64,000 nt of DNA from positions 868,001 to 932,000 of the forward strand of contig NZ_PHQX01000001.1 of the NCBI RefSeq assembly GCF_002803515.1. The letters are read 5' to 3'. Position numbers and translations under genes: made by a program. Below the pieces are notes generated by a model, which saw only the letters and a program-made list of their open reading frames with translations, was not told the origin of the DNA and did no database searches. Shown in pieces: positions 43,023 through 60,537 of this stretch (position 1 is the stretch's first letter; each line of letters starts with the position of its first letter). Source of the stretch: Stenotrophomonas lactitubi (lineage in GTDB: Bacteria > Pseudomonadota > Gammaproteobacteria > Xanthomonadales > Xanthomonadaceae).

Positions 43023-43137
43023 CCATGAATTCCGGAAAGCGGGCAGGGAATTATCGGGGTCGCTACCGGCGTGGCCGCTGAATCGGTTGCCATCGCAACT
43101 GTTGCGCCGCGCCGGAAACCCGGTTACGGTCGGATCC

Positions 43138-43239
43138 ATGTCGCTCCGCCTGGCCACCGCCGTCAACAACAGCAACCGCAATAATCTGCGCGCGAATAAT
43201 CGTGCGCGGCCGATGCGGGACTGCGCCCTGGGTAGATAG
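43138..43239 (+). CDS. Asparagine-rich leader peptide of the asnB attenuator
   Basis: A 33-codon ORF, starting ATG and ending TAG, lies upstream of the asnB terminator. Seven of its codons specify Asn and are clustered: 43165, 43168, 43174, 43180, 43183, 43195 and 43198, in the string VNNSNRNNLRANNR (positions 9-22). The other residues are ordinary. In attenuators of amino-acid operons such a run makes the ribosome stall when the matching charged tRNA is scarce. The Shine-Dalgarno is weak (GGAT). I know of no described leader of this type for asnB in proteobacteria, but that is memory, not a search. Confidence 0.8.
   Translation: MSLRLATAVNNSNRNNLRANNRARPMRDCALGR
43207..43219 (+). promoter_or_regulatory. 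Antiterminator arm complementary to the asnB terminator
   Basis: CGGCCGATGCGGG lies inside the leader ORF. It is perfectly complementary over 13 nt to 43269-43281 (CCCGCATCGGCCG), the 5' side of the terminator, and nearly identical to the terminator's 3' arm. Pairing would destroy the terminator hairpin. A small stem (43189-43194 with 43203-43208, loop containing two Asn codons) lies just upstream and could compete. Confidence 0.75.
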
Positions 43240-43264
43240 ACAGCAACATACGCCCGGACACCAG

Positions 43265-43295
43265 AAAACCCGCATCGGCCGATGCGGGTTTTTTT
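43265..43295 (+). terminator. asnB attenuator terminator
   Basis: Stem AAAACCCGCATC / GATGCGGGTTTT with a GGCC tetraloop, ending in seven consecutive T residues. It is 85 bp before the asnB start. This is a textbook intrinsic terminator in a leader. Confidence 0.9.
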
Positions 43296-43380: not shown

Positions 43381-45072
43381 ATGTGTTCGATCTTCGGTAT
43401 TTTCGGCCTGCAGGCCGGTGACGATCTTCCTTCCCTGCGCCGCCATGCGCTGGAGCTGTCGCAGCGCCAGCGCCATCGCGGCCCGGACTGGAGCGGCGTG
43501 TACCTGGACGAAGGCGCGCTGCTGGTCCACGAGCGCCTGGCCATCGTCGATCCGGCCGGCGGCTCGCAGCCGCTGCTGTCCGAAGACGGGCAGCTGGCGC
43601 TGGCGGTCAACGGCGAGATCTACAACCACCAGCAGCTCAAGGCCGGCCTCGCCGAAGCCTATGCCTTCCAGACCGGCTCGGACTGCGAGGTGATCAACGC
43701 GCTGTACCGTCAGGGCGGATCGCCCGCGCAGTGGCTGGAACAGCTCAACGGCATCTTCGCCTTTGCCCTGTGGGACCGTGCAGCCGGCCGTGTGCTGGTG
43801 GCGCGCGATCCGGTCGGCGTGGTGCCGCTGTACTGGGGCCATGATGCGCAGGGGCGGCTGCGCGTAGCTTCTGAAATGAAGGCGCTGGTCGATACCTGCG
43901 CCGACGTTGCCCAGTTCCCGCCGGGCCATTACTACGACAGTGCCAGCGGCGAACTGGTGCGCTACTACCAGCAGCCGTGGCGCGAGTACGACGAGGTGCA
44001 GGGCCGCCAGGCCGATCTCGCCGAGCTGCGCCAGGCCTTTGAACATGCGGTGGAACGCCAGTTGATGAGTGACGTGCCGTATGGCGTGCTGCTGTCGGGC
44101 GGGCTGGATTCGTCGCTGGTTGCCGCCGTGGCAGCACGTTATGCGCGGCGTCGCATCGAAGATGGCGGCCAGAGCGAAGCCTGGTGGCCGCGCCTGCATT
44201 CGTTCGCCATCGGCCTGAAGGGTTCGCCGGATCTGGCGGCTGCTGCGGTCGCCGCCGAAGCGCTGGGCACCGTGCACCACGGCTTCGAATACACCTTCGA
44301 GGAAGGTCTGGATGTGTTGCCGGAGGTGATCCGCCACATTGAAACCTACGACGTCACCACCATCCGCGCCTCCACGCCGATGTTCCTGCTGGCGCGCCGG
44401 ATCAAGGCGATGGGGGTGAAGATGGTGCTGTCCGGTGAGGGCAGCGACGAGATCTTCGGCGGCTATCTTTACTTCCACAAGGCACCGGACGCGCGCGAAT
44501 TCCACCAGGAACTGGTGCGCAAGCTCGACGCCCTGCACAACTACGATTGCCTGCGCGCCAACAAGTCGATGATGGCCTGGGGCGTGGAGCCGCGCGTGCC
44601 GTTCCTGGACCGCGAGTTCCTCGACGTGGCCATGCGTTTCGATGCCGCGCACAAGATGGTCGGTGCCGGCTTCGGTGGTCGCCGCATCGAGAAGGCAGTG
44701 CTGCGCGAGGCCTTCGAGGGCTACCTGCCGGACAGCATCCTGTGGCGGCAGAAGGAGCAGTTCAGCGATGGTGTCGGCTACGGTTGGATCGACGGCCTGA
44801 AGGCGCACGCCGAAGCACAGGTCAGCGACCGCGTACTGGCCGCCGCCGACAAGCGCTTCCCGCACAACCCGCCGCAGACCAAGGAGGCGTACTACTACCG
44901 CCACCTGTTCGAGCAGTTCTTCCCCAGTCATGCGGCGGCTGAAACCGTGCCGGGCGGGAAGTCGATCGCCTGTTCCTCGCCGGCAGCCATTGCCTGGGAC
45001 GCCAGCTTCGCCGCAGCCGCCGATCCGTCGGGCCGCGCCATCGCCGGCGTGCACGAGCAGGCTCTGGCCTGA
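43381..45072 (+). CDS. asnB: Asparagine synthase (glutamine-hydrolysing), AsnB
   Basis: The 563-residue enzyme makes Asn from Asp, Gln and ATP. The N-terminal class-II glutaminase uses Cys2 (MCSIFGIFG). It shows RQRHRGPDWSG, HERLAIVDP and NGEIYNHQQL. The C-terminal synthetase has the PP-loop LLSGGLDSSLVAAVAA from about residue 237, SGEGSDEIFGGYLYF, and RVPFLDREFLDVAM. Length and C-terminus match the AsnB family. The start has AGGAG nine bases upstream. The leader just before it makes regulation by Asn availability likely. Confidence 0.96.
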   Translation: MCSIFGIFGLQAGDDLPSLRRHALELSQRQRHRGPDWSGVYLDEGALLVHERLAIVDPAGGSQPLLSEDGQLALAVNGEIYNHQQLKAGLAEAYAFQTGSDCEVINALYRQGGSPAQWLEQLNGIFAFALWDRAAGRVLVARDPVGVVPLYWGHDAQGRLRVASEMKALVDTCADVAQFPPGHYYDSASGELVRYYQQPWREYDEVQGRQADLAELRQAFEHAVERQLMSDVPYGVLLSGGLDSSLVAAVAARYARRRIEDGGQSEAWWPRLHSFAIGLKGSPDLAAAAVAAEALGTVHHGFEYTFEEGLDVLPEVIRHIETYDVTTIRASTPMFLLARRIKAMGVKMVLSGEGSDEIFGGYLYFHKAPDAREFHQELVRKLDALHNYDCLRANKSMMAWGVEPRVPFLDREFLDVAMRFDAAHKMVGAGFGGRRIEKAVLREAFEGYLPDSILWRQKEQFSDGVGYGWIDGLKAHAEAQVSDRVLAAADKRFPHNPPQTKEAYYYRHLFEQFFPSHAAAETVPGGKSIACSSPAAIAWDASFAAAADPSGRAIAGVHEQALA

Positions 45073-58251: not shown

Positions 58252-58338
58252 TGGTGCCCAGGAGAGGACTCGAACCTCCACGAAGTTGCCCCCGCTAGCA
58301 CCTGAAGCTAGTGCGTCTACCAATTCCGCCACCTGGGC
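58252..58338 (-). tRNA. tRNA-Leu (anticodon CAG), copy 1
   Basis: An 87-nt type II tRNA with encoded CCA end. The acceptor stem GCCCAGG pairs with CCTGGGC. The D-arm GGCGGAATTGGTAGACGC is the standard Leu form, the anticodon loop is TTCAGGT (CAG), a long variable arm follows, and the T-arm is GGTTCGAGTC. It is identical over its whole length to the copy at 60207-60293. Confidence 0.97.
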
Positions 58339-58352
58339 GACTCAGGAGGAGA

Positions 58353-58381
58353 ATTTTGCAGGAAGCTTGGATATGTGTCAA
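58353..58381 (-). promoter_or_regulatory. Promoter of tRNA-Leu copy 1
   Basis: Minus strand: TTGACA (58381-58376), 17-base spacer, CAAAAT (58358-58353). It lies 15 bp upstream of the tRNA and just past the LysR stop codon. Confidence 0.85.
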
Positions 58382-58388
58382 CACCATT

Positions 58389-59300
58389 TCACACATTTTT
58401 TTCTGCACCCATTTCCGCGTCCATATCCAGATGCAGCAGCAGGCTGCGCATCGGCGGCGAGAGCTTTTCCCAGTCTGCAAACGCGGCGCACAGTCGGCGC
58501 TGTGCCCATGCGTTGCCGAGTGCAACGGCGACGATGCCGGTGGCCCGTCGGTGCTGCCGTGCGATCGTGCGTGGCGCGATGCCCACGCCGATGCCATGGC
58601 CCACCATCGTGCACAGGCCTTCGAAGGTCTTCATGCGGATGCGCACGTCGAGCGTGCGTCCGGCCTCTGCCGCCAGTTCTTCGATATAGGTCTGCAGTGC
58701 GTTGCCGTCGGCCAGCGCGACGAAGGTCTCGCCCAGCACATCGCTGAAGTCGAGCGAGCGCCGCGCGGCGAAGCGATGGCCGGCCGGCAGCAGCATCATC
58801 AGCGGGTCTTCCGCAACCACATGGCGGCGCAGCCCATCGGCGGGGACGGCGTCACTGATGATGCCGGCCTCTGCCTGGCCGGCGCGGATCGCACGCACGA
58901 CTTCATTGCTGGTGCGTTCGTGCAGTTCCACGCGCAGGCGAGGGCGTTCGGCCAGCCATGGGGCCAGTCGTGCGGGCAGGTAGCTGGTCAATGCCGCAGT
59001 GTTGGCATACAGGTGCAGCGTACCGCGCGCGCCGTGGGCGAAGGCCTGCAGTTCGCCGCGCAGCTGTGCCTGCTGCTGAAGGATCAGGCGCGCGTGATGG
59101 GCCAGTGCGGCGCCCGCTTCGGTGAGGCTGACGCCGCGCGGGTGACGGGTCAGCAGCGCGGTGCCGGCGTCGGTTTCGATCGCGCGCAGGCGTTCGCTGG
59201 CCGAGCCCAGTGCCAGATTCGCCTCTACGGCGCCGGCGGTGATGCTTCCGGCGTCGGCCACCGCCAGGAACAGGCGCAGATCGGCAATGTCCAGACGCAT
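58389..59300 (-). CDS. LysR-family transcriptional regulator
   Basis: The 303-residue regulator has the N-terminal helix-turn-helix (RLFLAVADAGSITAGAVEANLALGSASERLRAIE), a linker, and a periplasmic-binding-like effector domain with two lobes, for example HLYANTAALTSYLPARLAPWL and later FVALADGNALQTYIEELAAE. It is divergent from a TauE/SafE exporter gene and probably controls it. It ends 8 bp upstream of the tRNA-Leu promoter. Confidence 0.9.
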   Translation of the reverse strand: MRLDIADLRLFLAVADAGSITAGAVEANLALGSASERLRAIETDAGTALLTRHPRGVSLTEAGAALAHHARLILQQQAQLRGELQAFAHGARGTLHLYANTAALTSYLPARLAPWLAERPRLRVELHERTSNEVVRAIRAGQAEAGIISDAVPADGLRRHVVAEDPLMMLLPAGHRFAARRSLDFSDVLGETFVALADGNALQTYIEELAAEAGRTLDVRIRMKTFEGLCTMVGHGIGVGIAPRTIARQHRRATGIVAVALGNAWAQRRLCAAFADWEKLSPPMRSLLLHLDMDAEMGAEKNV

Positions 59301-59399
59301 GTCATGACCTCGCATCGTAGTCGTTGCCTTCGGAGCAGCCGAAGGACAGGGCGGGAATGCCGCATTGTGCGCTGAAGTGCCGCCGGCTCCAATGAAGGC

Positions 59400-60146
59400 A
59401 TGAACGAAACGATCTACTTCTATGGGTTGCTGGTGGGGGTGTTCCTGTTGGCCGGGCTGGTCAAGGGCGTGACCGGCATGGGCCTGCCGACCGTGGCGAT
59501 GGGGCTGCTGGGCGGCGCGTTGTCGCCGGTTGCGGCGGCCTCGATGCTGTTCATTCCCACCTTTGTCACCAATGCCTGGCAGCTGCTGTCCGGTCCATCG
59601 GTGGGGCAGATCGTGCGGCGGCTGTGGCCGATGATGCTGGCGGTGGTGATCGCTACGCTCGGTGCCGCCGCGTTGCTGGTGCGGGTGGATCGTGATGTGT
59701 CGCGTGCCGCGTTGGGCGTGGCGCTGGTGGTCTACGCCGGGTACGCGTTGCTGGCGCCGGTGTTGCGGGTGCCGGCTCGGCGCGAGCGCTGGCTCGGACC
59801 ACTGGTGGGCGCGATGTCCGGCGTGGTGACCGGCGCAACCGGCGTGTTCGTGATGCCGGCGGTGCCCTACCTGCAGTCGCTGGGGTTGCAGCGCGACGAG
59901 CTGGTGCAGGCGCTGGGGCTTGCATTCACGGTGTCCACCATTTCGCTGACCACAGGCTTGGTGCTGCATGGTGCGTTCGGCGTGCAGCAGCTCGGCCTGA
60001 GCGCGTTGGCGGTGGTGCCGTCGCTGGCCGGGATGTGGCTGGGGCAAGTGATCCGCCAGCGCATCAGTGCGCGGGTATTCCGTGCCTGCTTCCTCGGCTT
60101 CCTGTTGCTGCTTGGCCTGGAGCTGGTGCTGCGTTCGTGCTGGTGA
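59400..60146 (+). CDS. TauE/SafE-family membrane exporter
   Basis: The 248-residue protein has seven or eight helices and the family's two repeated halves: GLVKGVTGMGLPTVAMGLLGG and GAMSGVVTGATGVFVMPAVPYL. In this family the members export organosulphur compounds or sulphite, but the substrate here is unknown. Divergent from the LysR gene and placed between two identical tRNA-Leu copies. Confidence 0.85.
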   Translation: MNETIYFYGLLVGVFLLAGLVKGVTGMGLPTVAMGLLGGALSPVAAASMLFIPTFVTNAWQLLSGPSVGQIVRRLWPMMLAVVIATLGAAALLVRVDRDVSRAALGVALVVYAGYALLAPVLRVPARRERWLGPLVGAMSGVVTGATGVFVMPAVPYLQSLGLQRDELVQALGLAFTVSTISLTTGLVLHGAFGVQQLGLSALAVVPSLAGMWLGQVIRQRISARVFRACFLGFLLLLGLELVLRSCW

Positions 60147-60167
60147 TGCCGGCTGGAGGCCAGACAA

Positions 60168-60194
60168 GAAAAAACCCGCTTTCGCGGGTGTTTT
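60168..60194. terminator. Terminator shared by TauE/SafE gene and tRNA-Leu copy 2
   Basis: ACCCGC/GCGGGT stem with TTTC loop, an A-run on the left (AAGAAAAAA region) and a T-run on the right (TTTTTC). It lies between convergent genes and can work on both strands. Confidence 0.75.
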
Positions 60195-60206
60195 TCATTC
60201 TCGACA

Positions 60207-60293
60207 TGGTGCCCAGGAGAGGACTCGAACCTCCACGAAGTTGCCCCCGCTAGCACCTGAAGCTAGTGCGTCTACCAATTCCGCCACCTGGGC
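60207..60293 (-). tRNA. tRNA-Leu (anticodon CAG), copy 2
   Basis: An 87-nt tRNA identical in sequence to the copy at 58252-58338, again with encoded CCA. Confidence 0.97.
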
Positions 60294-60306
60294 GTCGAGG
60301 AGGAGA

Positions 60307-60335
60307 ATTATGCGGTGCCGTGACGGAGGTGTCAA
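60307..60335 (-). promoter_or_regulatory. Promoter of tRNA-Leu copy 2
   Basis: Minus strand: TTGACA (60335-60330), 17-base spacer, CATAAT (60312-60307). Confidence 0.88.
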
Positions 60336-60371
60336 CACCCTTGTGAAACTCCCGCGTCGGTCGCGCTCTGC

Positions 60372-60394
60372 ATATCCACGCCATGCGTGGATGG
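60372..60394 (+). repeat. Degenerate SMAG-like palindrome
   Basis: ATCCACGC-CAT-GCGTGGAT without the GTAG head (ATAT in its place), between the second and third tRNA genes. Confidence 0.6.
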
Positions 60395-60415
60395 GTGCCG
60401 AACCCGGATCGCAGG

Positions 60416-60441
60416 CAAAAAAAATCCCCGCCGAAGCGAGG
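60416..60441 (-). terminator. Terminator of tRNA-Leu copy 3
   Basis: Minus strand: TCCTCGC-TTCG-GCGGGGA with one G-T pair, followed by eight or nine T residues. Confidence 0.8.
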
Positions 60442-60452
60442 AGTTTTTTCGT

Positions 60453-60537
<85 letters not shown>

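Follow-up and report, generated by a model that had tools for sequence, protein, structure and literature searches.

In the 64,000-nucleotide (64-kb) stretch of Stenotrophomonas lactitubi DNA studied here, referred to below as the window, the asparagine synthetase gene asnB is very probably controlled by a ribosome-mediated transcription attenuator that senses Asn-tRNA(Asn). Attenuation had been proposed in an earlier sequence-only reading of the locus, and comparison with relatives now supports it, as both the Asn codons and the pairing between leader and terminator are kept among them. Features of the locus, ordered by position, are the following.

43102..43107, + strand: candidate -35 element TTGCGC of a putative promoter, its TTG kept in position in most relatives.
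43125..43130, + strand: candidate -10 element TACGGT, after a 17-nt spacer and 7 nt before the ATG.
43138..43239, + strand: leader ORF of 33 codons, MSLRLATAVNNSNRNNLRANNRARPMRDCALGR, with ATG at 43138 and TAG at 43237-43239.
43165-43170, 43174-43176, 43180-43185 and 43195-43200, + strand: Asn codons of the leader ORF.
43165..43185, + strand: main cluster of Asn codons (NNSNRNN), at which a stalled ribosome would leave segment 2 free (geometry predicted over 98 loci).
43207..43219, + strand: segment 2, the 5' side of the antiterminator, within the ORF, CGGCCGATGCGGG.
43265..43295, + strand: intrinsic terminator hairpin with a T7 tail, seen in sequence and fold, with covariation of the helix in Lysobacter-type loci.
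43269..43281, + strand: segment 3, the terminator 5' arm and loop, exact complement of segment 2.
43381..45072, + strand: asnB, glutamine-hydrolysing asparagine synthetase (NF006949, TIGR01536, Pfam).

The elements named by the sequence-only reading can all be read directly at the locus. The 33-codon ORF ahead of asnB carries seven Asn codons, three AAC and four AAT, and the stem, GGCC loop and T7 of the terminator lie at 43265-43295. Segment 2 lies in the final third of the ORF and matches 43269-43281 exactly as its reverse complement, in agreement with the claimed 13-nt complementarity to the 5' side of the terminator; the 3' part of segment 2 has the same sequence as the 3' arm of the terminator. 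The GC-rich arms (43265-43276 and 43281-43292) enclose the loop at 43277-43280, and four of the seven T at the end of the terminator (43289-43295) pair with the A-tract. A consensus scan, the rule of which counts T only beyond the extended stem, omitted this + strand terminator. Minimum free energy of the segment 43138-43300 is -68.8 kcal/mol (z -3.76), and none of 200 shuffled versions is equally low. The asnB product scores 871 bits with NF006949 (cut-off 499) and 432 bits with TIGR01536 (cut-off 267). The gene 5' of the leader, coding for a Sel1-repeat protein, is divergent on the minus strand, so the + strand terminator is not its own.

According to the proposed mechanism, RNA polymerase would start at or beside the leader ATG. 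With ample Asn-tRNA, a ribosome would follow closely and pass the Asn codons and segment 2 at the end of the ORF; with segment 2 held from segment 3, segments 3 and 4 would pair and transcription would end before asnB. In most relatives, the antiterminator core would be masked by the ribosome itself once this had reached the stop codon. When Asn-tRNA is scarce, the ribosome would stall in the Asn cluster, leaving segment 2 free to pair with segment 3. The terminator could not form under this 2:3 pairing, and asnB would be transcribed.

Conservation of the leader was assessed in asnB loci sampled as one genome per species and limited to the best 80 of 586. A leader with clustered Asn codons followed by a terminator was found in 66 of these 80 loci, which answers positively the earlier question of whether Asn codons are conserved in relatives; it is absent from 13, and L039 has only 60 nt of upstream sequence. 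The 66 loci with the leader are titled with Lysobacterales genera or higher names, two metagenome-assembled genomes (L011 and L013) being named only as Pseudomonadota/Proteobacteria. The 13 lacking it all bear labels from outside Lysobacterales, namely Acidobacteriota, Actinomycetota, Myxococcota or Deltaproteobacteria, Bacteroidota, Planctomycetota, and other Gammaproteobacteria. Three loci without a leader (L028, L040, and L067, labelled Holophagales, Rhodococcus, and Deltaproteobacteria) encode AsnB 74-80% identical to that of the window and fall among Lysobacterales sequences in the AsnB tree; either asnB was transferred without its leader, or the bins are contaminated.

Altogether, leaders were accepted in 101 of 151 loci including the window itself, that is, in 100, and 98 non-identical ones were retained when duplicates L091 and L109 were dropped. 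The search was built on a CCYGC/GYGGG core in the terminator and a cluster of three or more Asn codons, and leaders of other design would escape it. L103, recognized by a looser detector and failing the stricter T count, stays outside the 98.

Distribution at the level of the order was followed in 121 genomes, of which 71 encode a near full-length AsnB and 70 had their upstream regions read (G109 was left out). By family label, the leader occurs in 17/18 of f1, the family of the window, in 14/15 of f12, and in 3/3 of f2; the f12 count includes L120, with three Asn codons only, and L103, found by the looser detector only. The single genomes without it in f1 and f12 (G091 and G067) have AsnB with an identity of only 64-66%. 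In the remaining families the numbers are 1/18 in f7, 0/13 in f9, and 0/3 in f4, f5, and f10 together. The lone case in f7 (L132, genome G082) is an Asn-rich leader with a terminator before a 64%-identical asnB, with its -10-like hexamer located farther from the ATG; the 17 other sampled AsnB genomes of f7 have no leader. A class-wide sample of 229 genomes contains one genome outside f1 (G258, from another family) with an AsnB match at E <= 1e-150, and inspection by eye of its upstream region (L159) disclosed no such leader.

Asn makes up 18.9% of residues in the 98 non-identical leaders, compared to 1.5% in AsnB of 66 loci. Each leader has a median of 6 Asn codons, in the range 3-10, with just three in relatives L013, L019, L022, and L120. 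The leader frame of the 98 loci contains 626 Asn codons in 3314, while the other two frames contain 3 and 5 in 3216 each, a contrast that is somewhat inflated because frame 0 was chosen for Asn.

We also considered how often this arrangement appears elsewhere. A generic detector looked for a short ORF (12-75 codons) in which a stretch of 15 codons holds five or more Asn, followed 8-90 nt on by a hairpin with a T-rich tail. Applied to both strands of the 64-kb window, it gave one match in 636 overlapping 450-nt segments, corresponding to the asnB leader. Throughout L001-L080 it gave 80 matches in 4864 segments, distributed over 54 loci, and every one is an asnB leader; 15 of the 100 accepted leaders are missed by this detector. 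An ORF that arose by chance was rejected on the specificity of the detector and the near confinement of Asn codons to one frame. A match in L082 overlaps the position of the query itself but on the other strand, and it was read as the palindromic terminator and not as a second copy.

Three other explanations were weighed against attenuation by a ribosome stalled at Asn codons. A terminator and an antiterminator alone would also fit a riboswitch or a T-box, an RNA that binds a metabolite or tRNA instead of responding to ribosome stalling. A search for an Rfam entry had been suggested earlier, and none matches the leader region: at gathering thresholds, the scanned 64-kb window yields three tRNAs only, and no amino-acid leader (His, Leu, Thr, Trp, and others) or T-box. 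A riboswitch or T-box was rejected on this ground, and we consider it highly implausible, also in view of what is conserved. In alignments A1 and A2, conservation resides mainly in the Asn codons and segments 2-4, and the codons are maintained in one frame with the third base free (195 AAT and 219 AAC in 66 loci). As a separate observation, the three tRNAs are tRNA-Leu(CAG) genes on the minus strand at 58252-60537, within 2.3 kb, and two of them, 1955 nt apart, have equal Rfam scores.

The Asn excess could be unrelated to sensing of Asn if, for example, AAY codons served to keep the RNA unstructured and the ORF acted as a general sensor of the state of translation. This would be in line with the AAT fraction of Asn codons, 0.47 in leaders vs 0.14 in asnB and higher in leaders of 63/66 loci, as AAT lowers structure. 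Selective charging would not explain this preference for AAT, as one tRNA reads both Asn codons. Nevertheless, the equally A-rich Lys codons (AAA/AAG) account for just 0.2% of leader residues, the gene served is an asparagine synthetase, and the detector picked up no other Asn leader in the sequence it scanned, making a general sensor very improbable. Somewhat less remote, and still improbable, is that the Asn-rich peptide has its own function or that the terminated RNA works as an sRNA, with control of asnB secondary or absent. The short terminated RNA would be discrete, and some attenuator peptides act in trans, as reported for peTrpL (PMC7298713). Against such a role, the peptide varies between 20 and 44 residues and diverges widely in sequence and length outside the Asn cluster and the end encoding segment 2, while the Asn codons, the pairing, and the place before asnB are kept. 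Attenuation driven by Asn codons thus stays the preferred reading.

It further relies on two mutually exclusive helices, the antiterminator (2:3) and the terminator (3:4). The terminator core CCYGC/GYGGG is present in accepted loci as a search requirement, and the leader opposite to it mostly has GCRGG or a near variant. Paired with its own terminator arm, the leader end has a mean duplex energy of -21.1 kcal/mol over 98 loci, compared to -13.9 kcal/mol when the leader end is dinucleotide-shuffled and -16.9 with arms of other types. The own arm beats the mean of foreign arms in 83/98 loci (Wilcoxon 6e-14, a value only indicative because the loci are related). Relative to shuffles, p 0.05 is reached in 67/98 loci and missed in 31/98, and L045 and L052 form only a weak duplex. 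Together with L056, these two constitute a Lysobacter subgroup in which the antiterminator is weak or shifted; the switch may be on its way to being lost there, or a different pairing may be in use.

Compensation is clearest at one position of the core. The terminator arm reads CCUGC in five loci (L021, L023, L025, L027, and L034), and in 5/5 the leader has A, not G, at the corresponding place, so that the antiterminator stays Watson-Crick and the terminator gets a U-G wobble. In the remaining 93 loci the arm base is C, and the leader shows G (84) or C (9) there, never A. Mapped on the AsnB tree, the U/A state requires four changes (each a gain or a loss), of which well supported branches enforce three; accordingly, it changed more than once.

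In alignment A2, composed of 16 Lysobacter-type leaders, 90.2% of cells are paired in helix 2:3 as opposed to 24-45% for its slid versions, and the covariation score and the number of cells with double changes are above all 500 shuffles. Double changes affect 1/7 pairs, a count matched by 454/500 shuffles, and the number of pair types is not above shuffles either (500/500 as high). The terminator helix of Lysobacter-type loci has 96.9% of cells paired and double changes at 2/10 pairs. Unprompted, RNAalifold placed the 2:3 antiterminator in the consensus of 17 Xanthomonas/Stenotrophomonas-type leaders, where the covariation term of +0.42 means no covariation support; the same consensus pairs segment 4 with a CCGCA located in the Asn cluster. 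The complementarity noted by the sequence-only reading is therefore retained among relatives, with compensation clear at one position and pairing weaker in some loci.

Geometry of the ribosome was approximated by a footprint rule, in which the ribosome is taken to shield 12 nt beyond the first base of its A site. Under this rule, stalling would leave the antiterminator core free at 600/626 Asn codons in the 98 loci, with at least three such codons in every locus, which favours the earlier claim that stalling frees 43207-43219. With the ribosome at the last core-freeing Asn codon, helix 2:3 is predicted to be at least half formed in 93/98 loci. With the ribosome at the stop codon, the core is covered fully in 75/98 loci, at least by half in 80/98, and not at all in 3/98; zero pairing in this state holds by construction.

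The clade of the window departs from the common geometry. From the start of segment 2 to the end of the ORF it has 29 nt vs 20 nt in most relatives, the stop being 9 nt further downstream, and simple arithmetic with the footprint rule indicates that a ribosome at the stop would cover about one of nine core bases. As segment 2 would be barely covered, something else must keep it away there, and a predicted local hairpin may separate it from segment 3 in this clade. A general, conserved 1:2 protector hairpin is not supported, since sequestration of the core by upstream RNA equals that in shuffles (0.65 vs 0.65 in 98 loci). Fold energy of the 1:2 region is -14.6 vs -12.1 when shuffled, with p 0.05 reached in 28/98; among 12 loci inspected, p is low in L001, L008, L118, and L083, the locus of the window (p 0.01). 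In addition, the antiterminator is predicted without any ribosome in 58/98 leaders, L083 included, and an untranslated leader may for this reason read through instead of terminating. The stop geometry in the window clade, the unsupported protector, and the ribosome-free antiterminator slightly reduce our confidence in attenuation, and likewise in the more novel reading given below of a first Asn-specific attenuator.

Sequences preceding the leader suggest where its RNA starts. No sigma-70 consensus promoter was detected at the leader in a consensus scan. In 88/98 loci a TTG begins 35 or 36 nt ahead of the leader ATG, promoter score having had a part in the choice of starts; among leaders that have a single in-frame ATG, 34/38 carry TTG at the same spot. 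The end of the best -10-like hexamer is 6-7 nt ahead of the ATG in 94/98 loci, and the hexamer has the form TAnnnT in 38/98. A promoter score of at least 4.5 was obtained in 96/98 loci compared to 1.3% of 10290 shifted anchors, again with starts partly chosen by score. Shine-Dalgarno-like motifs stand before the leader ATG in 20/98 loci, as against 92/98 for asnB; the -10 candidate is CAGGAT, which itself contains AGGA, in 16/98 leaders. The spacing of TTG and -10 and the scarcity of Shine-Dalgarno motifs indicate that the leader transcript is probably leaderless, as judged from the placement of these motifs.

The source of Asn-tRNA was addressed by examining related enzymes in the genomes. 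The host genome encodes AsnRS (633 bits) and four weaker AsnB-like matches in addition to asnB, while no AsnA was found and no GatA exceeded the cut-off (219 bits vs 481). In the order sample of 121 genomes, AsnRS is over cut-off in 114 and GatA in 38. Near full-length AsnB and GatA over cut-off do not co-occur in this sample, GatA being over cut-off in 0/71 genomes with such an AsnB and in 38/50 others (counted by hand). Where asnB and its leader exist, Asn-tRNA should consequently depend on free asparagine, and this dependence is the feedback an attenuator needs. In a Xanthomonas citri quorum-sensing study (PMC6337780), asnB (XAC1433) is listed with amino-acid genes that shift in the same direction as thr/his genes in planta, a change that is compatible with an attenuator and is no test of it.

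We slightly favour the view that this is the first described Asn-specific attenuator: a two-state device, loaded on a leaderless transcript and with no obligatory protector, in which the terminating ribosome would mask the antiterminator in most members. It would belong to Lysobacteraceae, Rhodanobacteraceae, and their near kin that lack tRNA-dependent Asn synthesis, and would hence have to sense charging with free Asn. No report of an Asn attenuator was found in searches confined to open-licence literature. A list of E. coli/Salmonella attenuators in one such paper contains no Asn (PMC1183508). If the proposal is true, asparagine joins the amino acids sensed by ribosome stalling, the alignment could become an Rfam family, and an explanation for control of asnB would be at hand in relatives from Xanthomonas, Stenotrophomonas, Lysobacter, Rhodanobacter, and Dyella. 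Two questions would also become testable: can attenuation operate on a leaderless mRNA that has no protector hairpin, and what favours AAU in leaders when a single tRNA reads both Asn codons?

Compared with known systems, the asnB leader resembles the classical proteobacterial attenuators (trp, his, leu, thr, ilv, and phe) in having a leader ORF with cognate codons, a terminator before a gene for synthesis of the same amino acid, and an antiterminator segment overlapping the leader ORF. A survey by Vitreschak from 2004 reportedly covers branched-chain, His, Thr, Trp, and Phe attenuators, with Asn not among them. The asnB leader differs from the classical ones in using Asn, in being probably leaderless, and in the lack of a generally supported 1:2 protector; moreover, its segment 2 ends just before the stop in most relatives, where the terminating ribosome would mask it. 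Firmicutes have Asn-specific T-box elements that serve Asn-related genes, and T-boxes bind uncharged tRNA directly. Sensing of Asn-tRNA is shared with these elements, while the asnB leader has an ORF with Asn codons and no T-box match. A further likeness in arrangement is to trpL of Sinorhizobium meliloti, a ribosome-mediated attenuator in which the leader ORF starts at the first base of the transcript and is therefore leaderless, as proposed here for asnB. The two differ in that trpL responds to Trp and belongs to alphaproteobacteria, and they are likened by their arrangement and not by homology.
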